Of a stretch of DNA of 33,923 nt, positions 28,035-33,923 are shown one piece after another (the stretch's first letter is position 1; each line of letters begins with the position of its first letter). The DNA is taken from the IMG/VR virus record IMGVR_UViG_3300009176_000779, positions 1 to 33,923 of that record, one strand, 5' to 3'. Below the pieces are notes generated by a model, which saw nothing but the letters and a program-made list of their open reading frames with translations, made no database searches and had not been told where the DNA came from. This stretch comes from a virus. A program made the translations under genes and the position numbers.

Positions 28035-29507
28035 ATGGCCACTCTTAACCACGCGACGCTGGACCTGCCGCCTGCGTATAACATTTCTGAAGATCCGTCT
28101 CAATTAATATACATTCCACCACCTACGGTTGAAAAGTTCATGATGGACGACCATTTGGTGCGGTTCATCGTAGGCCCTGTCGGAAGTGGCAAGTCGATGG
28201 GCTGCATCATGGAACTGTTACGCCGGGCGCGGATGCAGAAGCCCGACGGCAACGGAAGACGCTCCACCCGTTTCGCCCTTATCCGTAATACGATGCAGCA
28301 ACTGCGCACCACTGTACTCAACGACGTAATGCAGTACCTAAATCCGATGATCCGGTATTTCGTCACCGACTCTACTATCCAGATACGCGCCGACCTCGAG
28401 GACGGCACGTCGGTGCACTCCGACTGGGTGCTCATACCCCTGGACACCAAGGAGGACGTGCGCAGGCTGCTCTCGATGCAGCTGACCGGCGCGTGGGTGA
28501 ACGAGATCCGCGAGGTGCCCTACGATATCGTCTCCGCGCTGATGGAGCGACTGGGGAGATTTCCTTCCAAGATCAACGGCGGACCGACATGGTTCGGACT
28601 CATAGCCGACAGCAACCCGTGGGACGTCGACTCCCCCTATCACGAAGCTCTCGTGCTTAATCCGGATGTGAAATGGGTTTTGTACCACCAGCCCTCGGGG
28701 TTATCGCCCCAGGCCGAGAACCTGGAGAACCTGCCGCCGGGTTATTACGAGAACGCGATGTCCGGCTCGTCGGAAGAACGTATCGCTACCCAAATAAGAT
28801 CCGAGTGGGGCACGTCCAACGCGGGTCAGGCGGTGTTCCGACGCTCGTTCGACGCCAACACCCACGTCGTGGACATGGAAGCGGTGGTCAACCCGATGCG
28901 GCCCATCCTGATCGCGATGGATTTCGGGCGCACGCCCTGCGCCCTGCTGGGGCAGGTGGACAGTTACGGACGATACCTGATTTTCGAGGAGATGGTCACC
29001 GACGACATGGGGCTGCACCAGATGGTGGCGGAACGGTTGCGACCGAGGCTGATGCAGGAGCCCTACAACGGCAAGCGATCCTACGTGGTGGCCGACCCGG
29101 CGGGCGCGCAGAAGTCACAACATACAGAGGAAACGGCGTTCGACGTATTACGGAGCGCCGGGTTTTTAGCATACCCAGGGCTTACCAACGACATCCCGCC
29201 GAGGTTGCTGGCGGTGGAAAAGCTCCTCAGGCAGACAATAATGGGTCAGCCCGCCCTCCAGATATCGCGGATGGGCTGTCCCGTGCTGATCAGGGCGCTG
29301 GCATCCCAGTACCACTACCGCCGCCGACGCGATGGCCACCTCGACGACAAACCGGAGAAGAACAACCATCCGTATTCCGATGTAGCCGATGCGTTGCAAT
29401 ACGGTTGCCTTTCGGTTCAGGCGGATCTCACGGGCAAGGCGATGCGGTCGATGGTATCGCGGGTGACATCCACCAAACCAAAGATAAGCTCTGGAGGTTG
29501 GACGTGA
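28035..29507 (+). CDS. terL: Large terminase subunit (TerL)
   Basis: The 490-aa protein has the Walker A motif GPVGSGKS (47-54) and a Walker B-like strand ending WVNEIRE (catalytic Glu about 157), then a coupling region with IADSNPWD. The C-terminal nuclease has acidic residues in LIAMDFGRT (D296), YVVADPAG (D354) and HPYSDVADALQYG (D449, D452). This is the usual ATPase plus nuclease order of phage packaging motors. The start follows the HNH stop by one base, and the end overlaps the next gene by four bases (GTGA). The motor docks on the portal and packages DNA into the head. Confidence 0.93.
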   Translation: MATLNHATLDLPPAYNISEDPSQLIYIPPPTVEKFMMDDHLVRFIVGPVGSGKSMGCIMELLRRARMQKPDGNGRRSTRFALIRNTMQQLRTTVLNDVMQYLNPMIRYFVTDSTIQIRADLEDGTSVHSDWVLIPLDTKEDVRRLLSMQLTGAWVNEIREVPYDIVSALMERLGRFPSKINGGPTWFGLIADSNPWDVDSPYHEALVLNPDVKWVLYHQPSGLSPQAENLENLPPGYYENAMSGSSEERIATQIRSEWGTSNAGQAVFRRSFDANTHVVDMEAVVNPMRPILIAMDFGRTPCALLGQVDSYGRYLIFEEMVTDDMGLHQMVAERLRPRLMQEPYNGKRSYVVADPAGAQKSQHTEETAFDVLRSAGFLAYPGLTNDIPPRLLAVEKLLRQTIMGQPALQISRMGCPVLIRALASQYHYRRRRDGHLDDKPEKNNHPYSDVADALQYGCLSVQADLTGKAMRSMVSRVTSTKPKISSGGWT

Positions 29508-31037: not shown

Positions 31038-31630
31038 TGCAGTCATGTAGGGCAAGAGTACCTAAAGGGCGGCGGGCCCGGGGGCCCCCCTTGGACAGAT
31101 GGGGGGTGGGGTCGGGCCGACCGTATTAAATCGTCAGCCACCTATACGGAAGCCGACTCTGCTTCGCCTGGCCTACCTGATCATTGACAATTGAATATGG
31201 TTACGTGTGCGGCGGTAGCGCGCCGAGCCGAATACGTAACAACCCGGTGCCGTTACCTAGGAAAACGGCTGAAGCAAAAGCATTACCTTCAACGGCGGCC
31301 GTAGCACTGGCACGTGTGGGAGAAATCGCACGGGTCCGGGTGATGCCAGTTGAGCCTTGGTGAGAGATTGCCTTGGAGTGCGCTGGATATGCGTTGGTTA
31401 ACGCGGTGAGCATGAAGGGAAAGCTGGGGAGACTGTGGCGCAATCGTCAATCAGTCTAACGCGGTGCGATCTAACGGTGGTCGCATGGAGCGTTGATCCT
31501 CTGGCTTGCTTGCGCTGGCAAATCGGAAACATGATCAAAACAAACACAACCGACCCTAGAACATACAGCCGCGTCATTGGTGTGACAGTCTTTGTCTCGC
31601 CGATGGCGCGGCTCGTTGTGTTTCCTCTGG

Positions 31631-31650
31631 CAATCACAAGCCTGTGATTG
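31631..31650 (+). promoter_or_regulatory. Inverted repeat upstream of first small gene
   Basis: CAATCACA-AGCC-TGTGATTG has perfect eight-base arms and a four-base loop, followed by the T-rich GATTGTTATT. It ends five bases before a 15-bp dispersed motif and 24 bases before ATG 31675. It could be an operator or an attenuator in the leader of the array. Confidence 0.6.
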
Positions 31651-31655
31651 GATTG

Positions 31656-31670
31656 TTATTCCCGGAGTAA
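31656..31670. promoter_or_regulatory. Dispersed 15-bp quasi-palindrome, site 14
   Basis: TTATTCCCGGAGTAA, exact; contains the GGAG Shine-Dalgarno of the gene at 31675. Confidence 0.75.
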
Positions 31671-31674
31671 ACCA

Positions 31675-31935
31675 ATGCTGATTAACACTGTGAACCTGAA
31701 CACCAAAAGCGACCGCATCGGTAGCGTCGCACCGCGCGGTGCTCGCGTGGTCAAGGTCGACGGTCGCGTGATCGTAATCAAGCGACTCAAGACAAAGCAC
31801 GCTCTGAACTCCGACACGTGGAGGCTCAAGGGCGGCATGATGGGCGGCTCTGGCGGCTCGTGCCGCGCCGTGACAGGCGGCAACGGTCTGGGTGTCGTGC
31901 CATCGGCTTTCGTCAACCATATCCGCGAGACCTGA
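31675..31935 (+). CDS. Hypothetical 86-aa protein, first gene of the right array
   Basis: ATG at 31675 follows a GGAG site embedded in the 15-bp dispersed motif (31656-31670), spacing seven bases. The protein starts MLINTVNLNTKSDRIGSVAP, continues with basic beta-rich KVDGRVIVIKRLKTK and a Gly-rich GGMMGGSGGS loop, and ends FVNHIRET. No family recognised. Its TGA stop is the first three bases of a hairpin module that recurs after the gene at 32162-32371. Confidence 0.7.
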   Translation: MLINTVNLNTKSDRIGSVAPRGARVVKVDGRVIVIKRLKTKHALNSDTWRLKGGMMGGSGGSCRAVTGGNGLGVVPSAFVNHIRET

Positions 31936-31989
31936 TCGTTGCTCTTACGGATACCCGCGCACCGCGCGGGTATCAGCAAGCGCACCGCT
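31933..31989 (+). other. Stop-codon hairpin module A
   Basis: It starts at the TGA of the preceding gene and has the 18 bases TGATCGTTGCTCTTACGG, then an 11-bp hairpin GATACCCGCGC-ACC-GCGCGGGTATC (31950-31974), and the 16 bases CAGCAAGCGCACCGCT. Module B has identical flanks around a different stem. The combination suggests a designed RNA element rather than a terminator, as it has no U-run. Confidence 0.75.
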
Positions 31990-31994
31990 TGGAA

Positions 31995-32009
31995 CTAATA
32001 CCGGAGTAA
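31995..32009. promoter_or_regulatory. Dispersed 15-bp quasi-palindrome, site 15
   Basis: CTAATACCGGAGTAA, one mismatch; contains the GGAG of the gene at 32012. Confidence 0.7.
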
Positions 32010-32011
32010 TC

Positions 32012-32158
32012 ATGACACTTCCAACAATCCTCGGTCTCACGGCAATCGTCGCGCCGCTGTGCTGGCCGCGTTGCACCTATCGCAAGGTGGGCGGGCTTCG
32101 CTTCATCCGCGTTGGCCGCTTCGGCGCGTCCTTCTTTATCTCCAACAAAGGAAACTGA
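32012..32158 (+). CDS. Small conserved-type phage protein (48 aa)
   Basis: ATG at 32012 follows GGAG of a 15-bp motif copy (31995-32009) by five bases. The protein begins MTLPTILGLTAIVAPLCWPR and ends with RKVGGLRFIRVGRFGASFFI and SNKGN. The C-terminal pattern LRFIRxGRFGxSFxxS occurs in small phage proteins of unknown function. Single N-terminal hydrophobic stretch (residues 4-18), possibly membrane associated. Confidence 0.7.
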   Translation: MTLPTILGLTAIVAPLCWPRCTYRKVGGLRFIRVGRFGASFFISNKGN

Positions 32159-32161
32159 CAC

Positions 32162-32371
32162 ATGGATTGGAACGTTTACCTCGCTAACTTCCACGGTTAC
32201 GCGAACGACAACACGATTGATGACGCGCCGCTATCGTTCCTGATTGATACTACCGTATTAAACGATAGCAGGCTATCGCCGGATCAGGACGACTATGATC
32301 CGGCGGACATGGAACTCGATGACGATGACATGGACGTGGATGTCGTCGAGTACTTCCAACGCTACTTCTGA
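32162..32371 (+). CDS. Hypothetical 69-aa acidic protein
   Basis: The ATG at 32162 lies three bases after the previous stop, with AAAGGAAAC upstream. The protein has a neutral start (MDWNVYLANFHGYANDNTID) and a very acidic C-terminus (DQDDYDPADMELDDDDMDVD), ending YFQRYF. DNA mimicry would fit such acidity (as in some phage anti-restriction or inhibitor proteins), but this is speculation. A 15-bp motif copy lies within (32247-32261), and its stop begins module B. Confidence 0.72.
   Translation: MDWNVYLANFHGYANDNTIDDAPLSFLIDTTVLNDSRLSPDQDDYDPADMELDDDDMDVDVVEYFQRYF
32247..32261. promoter_or_regulatory. Dispersed 15-bp quasi-palindrome, site 16
   Basis: ATACTACCGTATTAA, one mismatch; inside the acidic 69-aa gene. 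Confidence 0.6.
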
Positions 32372-32426
32372 TCGTTGCTCTTACGGTTACGCATGGCGGA
32401 CCATGCGTAGCAGCAAGCGCACCGCT
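32369..32426 (+). other. Stop-codon hairpin module B
   Basis: It shares the 18-base TGATCGTTGCTCTTACGG (starting at the TGA stop) and 16-base CAGCAAGCGCACCGCT flanks with module A. The stem is different: GTTACGCATGG-CGGA-CCATGCGTAGC (11 pairs, one G-U). Different stem sequence with conserved flanks and pairing suggests selection for the structure. Confidence 0.75.
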
Positions 32427-32465
32427 CGCGACGGACCGCGCCGATACCCAACGGAAAGGGACGCC

Positions 32466-32521
32466 ATGCGATTATGAACGCCCGCTTGAAGCCGTGCCAG
32501 TGTAGCCGTGGCACGGCTTAG
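32466..32521 (+). CDS. Candidate leader mini-ORFs MRL and MNARLKPCQCSRGTA
   Basis: After a GGAAAGGG site, ATG CGA TTA TGA codes three residues and overlaps by ATGA the ATG at 32474 of a 15-codon frame. The latter ends TAG at 32519-32521. The second frame contains a perfect 11-bp hairpin (32489-32519: AAGCCGTGCCA and TGGCACGGCTT). Coupled mini-frames over a hairpin look like a translational attenuator. Low to moderate confidence. Confidence 0.3.
32489..32519 (+). other. 11-bp perfect hairpin in the leader region
   Basis: AAGCCGTGCCA and TGGCACGGCTT pair around a nine-base loop (GTGTAGCCG). A second hairpin CGGCGGG...CCCGCCG follows at 32536-32558. Together with modules A-C they form a chain of hairpins in this 260-bp gap. 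Confidence 0.65.
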
Positions 32522-32565
32522 GGCCTGAGTGCTACCGGCGGGATTAGCTACCCCGCCGCTCGTGC

Positions 32566-32604
32566 AAGCCCGCGCACCGCGCGGGTTTACATGAGCGCAC
32601 CGCT
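32566..32604 (+). other. Partial hairpin module C
   Basis: It shares with module A the 17-base core CCCGCGCACCGCGCGGG, a ten-pair stem, and ends with AGCGCACCGCT of both A and B. The 5' flank with the stop codon is missing. It lies 27 bases before the ATG at 32632. Confidence 0.65.
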
Positions 32605-32631
32605 CAGAACTCCAACGGGAGACAGCATCGA

Positions 32632-32805
32632 ATGAACCATGTGCACGCCGAGGTTATCGCGATCATCGAAGCATACCTTGATGGTGTGTATAGCCGCCGC
32701 GATGTGGCTATGCGCCTGGATATTTACCACCATTACACGGTCAACGCGATTGACCGCATCCTACGTCAGCCGCGCAAGCAACTCATGTTGTTTCGCGGCT
32801 ACTGA
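32632..32805 (+). CDS. Hypothetical 57-aa protein
   Basis: ATG at 32632 with a GGGAG site ten bases upstream. The sequence MNHVHAEVIAIIEAYLDGVY, SRRDVAMRLDIYHHYTVNAI and DRILRQPRKQLMLFRGY is predicted helical. YLDGVYSRRDVAMRLDIYHH could be a helix-turn-helix. A small DNA-binding regulator is possible, but there is no family match by eye. It is shorter than common size cut-offs. Confidence 0.68.
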   Translation: MNHVHAEVIAIIEAYLDGVYSRRDVAMRLDIYHHYTVNAIDRILRQPRKQLMLFRGY

Positions 32806-32820
32806 TACCGTCCCAAACCT

Positions 32821-32835
32821 TTAATACCGGAGTAA
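32821..32835. promoter_or_regulatory. Dispersed 15-bp quasi-palindrome, site 17
   Basis: TTAATACCGGAGTAA, exact; contains the GGAG of the 314-aa gene at 32842. Confidence 0.75.
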
Positions 32836-32841
32836 CACAAC

Positions 32842-33786
32842 ATGGCTAAAATCGTCGAAGTCGTTTCCGCTCGCGTCGAAGACATCGCGGCTCGTATCCG
32901 CGCCGCGTGTGTCGCGCTGTCCGAGCCGATGGATCGCTACTTCGAAGCGGAGGACGCCAAGAACCTCGCATCGGGTGATGGCAATAACACGCGGCTGTCA
33001 GTCATCACGGACATCGCGGCCATGTCGCACGCGGAGTCCTGGACGTACGGCGAAGTGGCGCAAGCCTGCGAACGCGCCGCGAAAATGGGCAACGCGCAAG
33101 GCGCGGAACGGTCGCGCACGGAAAAGAGCGTGGGAGTGTTCATCTCCGAGATGAAAACCTTCGCGAGCCCGAAAGTGCGAGGCTACCTGCCCGACCTTCG
33201 CGAGGTTTGTGAGAGTGTGTGGGCCGACGAAACTGAATTGCTCGCATCGGTCGACCGCGAGGACCGCGAGAGCATCGAAACCCCGGTTCGCAAGTGGCAA
33301 AGCAGGTTCTACCACCTGCTCATGAACGTGGCTCGCGCCGTGAAGGACGGCAAGCTGGACGGCAACCTGACCAAGCAGGGCCTGATCGCCTACGCGGTGG
33401 CGAACGATCCGGACCACAACGCCGTCAAGGTGGCCGCGCGGCTCAAGACCATCCTCGAAAAGATCGACGCCTTCCATGCGGACTTCGGCATGGAGGAACT
33501 CCAAACGGCGGCGGACTACCTGCGGACCATCACCACCGAGGAACTGCTGGCCGCGCGCCAGACCCTGCTTGCCTCTCAGGCGGCGCTTACGCCGCCGCCG
33601 GTAGTGGAAGCCCCGGCGGCTCCCGCGCCCGCTCCCGCCCCTGTCCAGGCGGCGGCATCGGATGACGCCGAGGTTGCCTCGGGCGTGCTGGACTACGATG
33701 AGTTCGACGCCATCCTGAGCGACGCGACAGCGCGCAACGCGCGACTGGTGGAGCGTCAGGTGGTGGCCGCCCTGCTGGTGGCCTGA
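32842..33786 (+). CDS. Hypothetical 314-aa helical protein
   Basis: ATG at 32842 lies nine bases after GGAG of a 15-bp motif copy (32821-32835). The protein begins MAKIVEVVSARVEDIAARIR and is mostly charged helices: EDAKNLASGDGNN, EVAQACERAAKMGNAQGAER, WQSRFYHLLMNVARAVKDGK and LKTILEKIDAFHADFGMEEL. A Pro/Ala hinge (about 252-273, with APAPAPAPVQAA) leads to an acidic C-terminal end. No catalytic motif is visible. The largest gene of the right array; perhaps an early or host-takeover protein. Function unknown. Confidence 0.82.
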   Translation: MAKIVEVVSARVEDIAARIRAACVALSEPMDRYFEAEDAKNLASGDGNNTRLSVITDIAAMSHAESWTYGEVAQACERAAKMGNAQGAERSRTEKSVGVFISEMKTFASPKVRGYLPDLREVCESVWADETELLASVDREDRESIETPVRKWQSRFYHLLMNVARAVKDGKLDGNLTKQGLIAYAVANDPDHNAVKVAARLKTILEKIDAFHADFGMEELQTAADYLRTITTEELLAARQTLLASQAALTPPPVVEAPAAPAPAPAPVQAAASDDAEVASGVLDYDEFDAILSDATARNARLVERQVVAALLVA

Positions 33787-33923
33787 GTTTAATACGGTAG
33801 TATGGGAAAGCAGTAGCAGGGGGTACCAACCCCCTGCTCGCTTGCTCTAACGCGCCGGTTAGTGGCGACGCGCTAGACAAAGCGAGTGAATATGTAGAGC
33901 CGAGGCCGGATAAACGAATGATC
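33787..33923 (+). other. Right-end intergenic region with tandem hairpins
   Basis: It contains a 15-bp motif copy (33789-33803) right after the stop, a perfect ten-pair hairpin AGCAGGGGGT-ACCA-ACCCCCTGCT (33815-33838), and a second long hairpin (33837-33886) with outer CTCGCTT/AAGCGAG and inner TCTAACGCG/CGCGCTAGA (one A-C mismatch). An ATG at 33918 may open the next gene, without a clear Shine-Dalgarno at normal spacing. The first hairpin could end the array transcript, though a U-run is missing. Confidence 0.55.
33789..33803. promoter_or_regulatory. Dispersed 15-bp quasi-palindrome, site 18
   Basis: TTAATACGGTAGTAT, one mismatch; two bases after the stop of the 314-aa gene and before the terminal hairpins. 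Confidence 0.65.

Follow-up and report, generated by a model that had tools for sequence, protein, structure and literature searches.

Conserved two-turn hairpins between small genes of an uncultured phage clade as candidate RNase III-type processing signals

Gene neighbourhood and related contigs

The virus record analysed here (IMGVR_UViG_3300009176_000779; 33,923 bases, hereafter called the window) codes for a large terminase subunit (28035-29507), a portal protein that matches the SU10 family, and long tail fibres with S74 chaperone domains, one of which carries collagen repeats. The plus strand of the window also carries a series of small genes that encode proteins of 86 amino acids (aa) (31675-31935), 48 aa (beginning MTLPTILG; 32012-32158) and 69 aa (acidic, with the C-terminus EYFQRYF; 32162-32371), followed by a 314-aa gene (32842-33786) that serves as the anchor of the region. 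The stop codons of the 86-aa and 69-aa genes each precede a copy of a structured element, which we call element A. The first copy (W1) lies upstream of the 48-aa gene.

Five contigs in IMG/VR contain a close relative of the 314-aa gene adjoining such modules. One of these spans 64,310 bases and has a terminase that is 97% identical to that of the window. Since the terminase and the neighbouring region lie at opposite ends, this contig probably represents a complete, circularly permuted genome. Homologues of the 48-aa gene are present in contigs L038, L039 and L040, and those of the 69-aa gene in L038, L040 and L104, while the L039 homologue of the latter has a different end. The 86-aa gene shares the C-terminal motif TWRLKGGMMGG with genes of 82-128 aa in L039, L040 and L104. 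Neither the 314-aa nor the 86-aa gene has a match in annotated phages, and the 86-aa gene likewise has none in plasmids; a genome scan with the 314-aa alignment returned nothing beyond a weak, partial match to a Verrucomicrobiaceae MAG. In the stretches read of two cultured terminase relatives, Rhizobium phage RHph_TM3_14A and Pseudomonas phage Rollin, no similar succession of elements was seen.

Several additional features were encountered in this neighbourhood. Upstream of the small genes is a stretch of approximately 600 bases (31060-31660) without a clear gene, which contains G/C runs and a hairpin of 21 bp (31567-31613) and has no Rfam match. A perfect 17-base inverted repeat, ATACTACCGTATTAAAC / GTTTAATACGGTAGTAT, has one arm inside the 69-aa gene (32247-32263) and the other after the 314-aa gene (33787-33803). 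A hairpin, GCCGGATCAGGACGACTATGATCCGGC, lies in the coding part of the 69-aa gene (32276-32302), and is found also in L038, L040, L104 and partly in L039. Several genes are preceded by related TTTAATACCGGAGTAAC leaders. Downstream of the second copy of element A (W2) is a mini-ORF that is conserved, spans 3-4 codons and has a good Shine-Dalgarno sequence (window 32466-32477, L038 ~4038, L040 ~6015, L104 ~14228), which is possibly a minigene or a leader peptide. Its peptides read MRL, MRLA, MRLC and VRIA, each followed by a stop, and an AGCCCG hairpin comes after the mini-ORF in L038 and L104. Finally, just 5ʹ of the first small gene of L038 (3259-3329, plus strand) is a hammerhead ribozyme-like sequence, absent from the other relatives, that has the core CUGAUGAG...CGAAA with GUC at the cleavage position and scores 28.7 bits against Rfam Hammerhead_3, for which the gathering score is 48.5.

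Architecture of element A

The two modules span 31933-31989 and 32369-32426. Each was originally predicted to begin and end with identical sequences of 18 and 16 bases that surround unrelated 11-pair stems, and these repeats are indeed exact: the 18-base TGATCGTTGCTCTTACGG occurs at 31933-31950 and 32369-32386, and the 16-base CAGCAAGCGCACCGCT at 31974-31989 and 32411-32426. The longer repeat is found nowhere else in the window even when three mismatches are permitted (expected 0.00; never in shuffles). However, the repeats are not flanks separate from the hairpin, as had been proposed. The 5ʹ and 3ʹ repeats pair with each other, and therefore element A is one long irregular hairpin. It is free of bulges, comprises approximately 50 bases, and has about 24 positions per side, equivalent to two A-form turns.

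From its base upwards, element A consists of a lower helix of ten positions with interruptions, an ACG/AGC internal loop that is invariant and has a C-G pair in its middle, an 11-bp upper stem and a loop of 3-4 nucleotides. In the window, the lower helix reads CG-U-UGC-U-CUU / AAG-C-GCA-C-CG, with U.C mismatches. W1 (31937-31987, plus strand; 75.0 bits) is preceded by the TGA stop at 31933-31935, pairs 31937-31946 with 31978-31987 in the lower helix, and has its upper stem at 31950-31974 with the loop ACC. W2 (32373-32424, plus strand; 80.1 bits), which follows the TGA stop at 32369-32371, has the same architecture with its upper stem at 32386-32411 and the loop CGGA. The two upper stems, although each of 11 bp, are unrelated in sequence and carry loops of three and four nucleotides, and the stem of W2 includes one G-U pair.

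Searches with Rfam gave no match at the gathering score in the window, and a relaxed threshold produced only chance-level matches away from the elements. A self-cleaving ribozyme was rejected because no Rfam match covers the elements. Stop-codon read-through as the purpose of the modules was set aside as well, since the W2 hairpin itself contains a TAG in frame. Searches of the literature revealed no account of comparable hairpins, which is weak evidence given partial coverage.

Conservation and covariation in related contigs

Each of the five related contigs spanning the region has homologues of element A: one copy each in L038, L039 and L104 and two each in L040 and L041. Every copy has exactly 11 pairs in its upper stem, and all have a four-nucleotide loop except W1, where the loop has three. 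In the window (W2), L038, L040, L041 and L104, the element comes after a gene whose product ends in FQRY(F/DR) and is separated from the 314-aa gene by an untranslated block. L039 lacks this block; there, the preceding gene ends differently, and the element is directly 5ʹ of the 314-aa gene. Element A lies between small genes on one strand, and the genes around it presumably share one early transcript. The stop codon is located inside the 5ʹ arm or just ahead of it in variable register; the element does not as a rule start at the stop codon, as the modules of the window had suggested, given that the stop is deeper in the 5ʹ arm in L104 and L040.

An alignment (A3) was built of six distinct sequences, taken from the window and its related contigs, in which the lower helix is formed by columns 7-16 with 49-58. 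In this alignment, 91.6% of 131 cells are paired, compared with only 25-43% when the structure is slid along the sequences. Two-sided compensatory changes occur at 10 of the 22 pairs of a structure drawn from these same six sequences, themselves a small set, a number matched by none of 500 shuffles, which ignore kinship. Changes of this kind affect the lower helix at columns 9/56 (UA, AU) and 14/51 (CG, AU), and the U.C mismatch at 13/52 becomes a G-C pair in two sequences. UUACG and AGCAA are present in all six sequences, while the apical loop is not conserved. Folded in isolation, five of the six sequences adopt the common structure as their minimum free energy (MFE) fold, and L039 deviates from it in a single outer pair. 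When more flanking sequence is included, the lower helix of W1 and L039 is predicted to give way to a small 3ʹ hairpin, CAAGCG..CGCUUG. A competing lower helix, TTGCT/AGCAA, was discarded as the principal fold: in the lower part only 78.6% of the cells are paired and no two-sided changes occur, and the fold is 3-11 kcal/mol worse.

These data support selection on element A for RNA structure. The original prediction had proposed such selection from two modules, and had named further copies with compensatory changes at other gene ends as what would support it; the five related contigs carry such copies, whose stems are different yet paired.

Variant B and other hairpins of the region

A second hairpin type, variant B, has the outer helix of element A (CG-U-UGC-U / C-GCA-C-CG) but the centre UUCG/UGAG rather than CUUACG/AGCAAG, with 11 positions above it, including one mismatch in the copy labelled L040B. 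It is found at L040 5228-5275, L038 4192-4290, L104 14386-14485 and L040 6145-6210, and its apical part is long in L038 and L104. Two-sided changes were observed at nine of the 11 upper positions, on a manual registration of the arms and with a single orthologous site accounting for three of the four copies. A third, partial copy of the modules had been predicted at 32566-32604. This segment does share CCCGCGCACCGCGCGGGT with the first module and AGCGCACCGCT with both, but it belongs to variant B, with which element A has the lower half in common. The corresponding hairpin (W3; 32557-32597, plus strand) is a shortened variant B counterpart formed by CGCTCGTG/CATGAGCG, with a C.A mismatch, a 10-bp upper stem and the loop ACC, and the homologous position is present in L038, L040 and L104.

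A scan of the window for symmetric two-turn hairpins returned ten (shuffle mean 2.9, maximum 7), six of which fall within 31567-33887, or about 7% of the window. One (31567-31613, plus strand) occupies the untranslated region 5ʹ of the first small gene and has 21 of 22 positions paired. Another, hairpin C (CTCGCTTGCTCTAACG.../...CTAGACAAAGCGAG; 33837-33886, plus strand), lies downstream of the 314-aa gene, is preceded by a 10-bp hairpin at 33815-33838, and is conserved in L038, L039 and L040.

Leader hairpins that sequester a Shine-Dalgarno sequence were located at L039:1620-1676, L040:4959-5005, L104:13546-13591, L105:5696-5742 and L107:4398-4443. In these, a helix of 9-10 bp that includes one compensatory change from G-C to A-U buries the Shine-Dalgarno sequence of a small gene with a paired probability near 1. 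They resemble element A in their two-turn length and in standing before a small gene, but element A encloses no Shine-Dalgarno sequence in its own duplex.

Possible functions of element A

On balance, we lean towards the view that element A is an RNase III-type processing signal in the small-gene transcript that serves to separate the small genes. The geometry, position and multiplicity of the hairpins are like those of the sites in phage T7, which makes processing of this type the best explanation. The small-gene transcript would fold at each element into a bulge-free, irregular two-turn duplex, a length that suits double-stranded RNA binding by RNase III. The host enzyme would cut at or near the central internal loop, parting the upstream from the downstream mRNA and leaving the stable 11-bp hairpin near the new 3ʹ end. 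Transcription through the region, cleavage, the enzyme involved and an effect on stability or translation are thus what we infer under this proposal. Element A may also be an mRNA-stabilising cap; a site cut by RNase III would leave such a hairpin anyway. Two observations weigh against processing. The sequence of the lower half is conserved beyond what RNase III alone should need, though T7 sites share sequence too, and the lower helix of W1 and L039 is predicted to be lost in longer context.

The conserved lower half would also be explained if element A remains uncut and is bound by a phage or host protein that stabilises the mRNA on its 3ʹ side or represses translation. The internal loop and lower helix would then form the recognition site, and the 11-bp stem would be a one-turn spacer or cap. 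The invariant CUUACG-type centre beneath a variable apical loop and the exact identity of W1 and W2 over 18 and 16 bases are in keeping with such binding. We nevertheless consider it unlikely, as no candidate protein was found, the lower helix shows compensated variation of its own (9/56, 14/51), and the centre of variant B is not the same. It is similarly doubtful, if conceivable, that these hairpins constitute a novel family of phage RNAs whose conserved lower half is read by a dedicated protein or nuclease, whose one-turn upper stem of 11 bp acts only as a ruler, and whose members are acquired alongside new small genes as portable cassettes that separate genes.

An improbable third option is translational coupling, whereby the 5ʹ-arm segment GUUGCUC pairs with the next Shine-Dalgarno sequence (GGAGUAAC/U) until a ribosome at the stop codon covers the arm and frees it. 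The octamer CGTTGCTC is the very strand that sequesters CGGGAGYAAC in the leader hairpins of L039 and L104, and a Shine-Dalgarno sequence of this kind follows W1 and the L040a copy. However, when W1, L039 and L040a are folded with more surrounding sequence, the Shine-Dalgarno sequence is partly paired but has other partners in the MFE structure. Moreover, the copies at the main position (W2, L038, L040b, L104) have no such sequence close by, and the 5ʹ arm can be changed (GUUAAGA in L104).

The distribution of copies bears on whether element A is a mobile palindromic repeat, REP/MITE-like or attC-like, that inserts at gene ends. W1 occupies a site where only 1-4 bases separate the genes in L038, L039, L040 and L104, and the extra L040 element accompanies an extra 72-aa gene, both of which favour insertion. 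From these two cases, copies seem to have been gained with or between genes. However, the 64-kb relative has a single element A and the window two, extra copies are confined to the window (W1) and L040/L041, and the main copy keeps the same place with respect to the 314-aa gene throughout the relatives. There are one to three copies per record, all within one 2-kb region, and the 64-kb relative and the window contain none dispersed at unrelated positions as REP, MITE or attC-like repeats would be. An IMG/VR 15-mer scan and three pattern scans revealed no convincing element outside the clade (in the last scan, among the matches listed), and compensatory changes together with G-U pairs indicate an RNA. 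REP and attC-like palindromes do share with element A the constant feet, the variable paired stem and the location at gene ends, but element A differs in its few copies, single region, conserved main position and symmetric two-turn duplex. The mobile intergenic element first suggested is thus weak as stated, given the fixed main position and the single copy in a probably complete genome, and we judge it quite improbable. Transcription termination at gene ends is very improbable, for although stable hairpins directly follow stop codons, no copy is succeeded by a U tract and a terminator scan finds no terminator at the modules.

Comparison with RNase III sites of phage T7

The early RNA of T7, a host polymerase product of approximately 7,000 nucleotides, is cut by host RNase III at five sites (PMC4858673). 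We folded the early intergenic regions of T7 for comparison. As the T7 record does not annotate these sites, the positions used (R0.3, R0.5, R1, R1.1, R1.3) are the expected ones, placed with the help of the folds. There, the folds show an upper stem of 9-13 bp capped by a loop of 3-5 nucleotides; beneath it come a small internal loop or a mismatch at the centre and then a lower stem with interruptions. The stop codon of gene 0.4 (TGA, 1431-1433) is in the 5ʹ arm of the R0.5 hairpin.

The T7-site motif AAGGUC..GGCCUUUAUGAU is not present in the element A sequences, and the model of element A (R1) has no match in T7. By these tests, element A does not appear homologous to the T7 sites, though both could still work in the same way. 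A search of the 64-kb relative for a T7-type RNA polymerase, with T7 as the positive control, found none. An RNase III domain was not found in the phage records either (eight control genomes were positive), and therefore the host enzyme would act, as it does in T7.

If cleavage is confirmed, RNase III partitioning of mRNA in the style of T7 would extend to a distant clade in which a T7-type polymerase was not found, by means of an element whose upper stem drifts freely at fixed length. Such sites would also help to place transcript ends in uncultured phages. With their naturally occurring compensated variants, the hairpins would furthermore help to establish which features of a hairpin are read by RNase III or a different double-stranded RNA-binding protein.

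Like element A, the T7 sites occur several to a small-gene region and are intergenic. In both, the upper stem measures about one turn, the central internal loop is small and the lower stem is interrupted; a stop codon lies within the 5ʹ arm or beside it, and the sites of one phage have sequence in common. All six element A sequences form a two-turn duplex with about one turn above the central internal loop (24 positions per side, the internal loop being 11 bp below the apical loop). The two systems differ in which part is conserved. In T7 it is the upper stem (AAGGUC..GGCCUU, then UUUAUGAU), whereas in element A it is the lower half and the internal loop, beneath an upper stem that is free in sequence but fixed at 11 bp.
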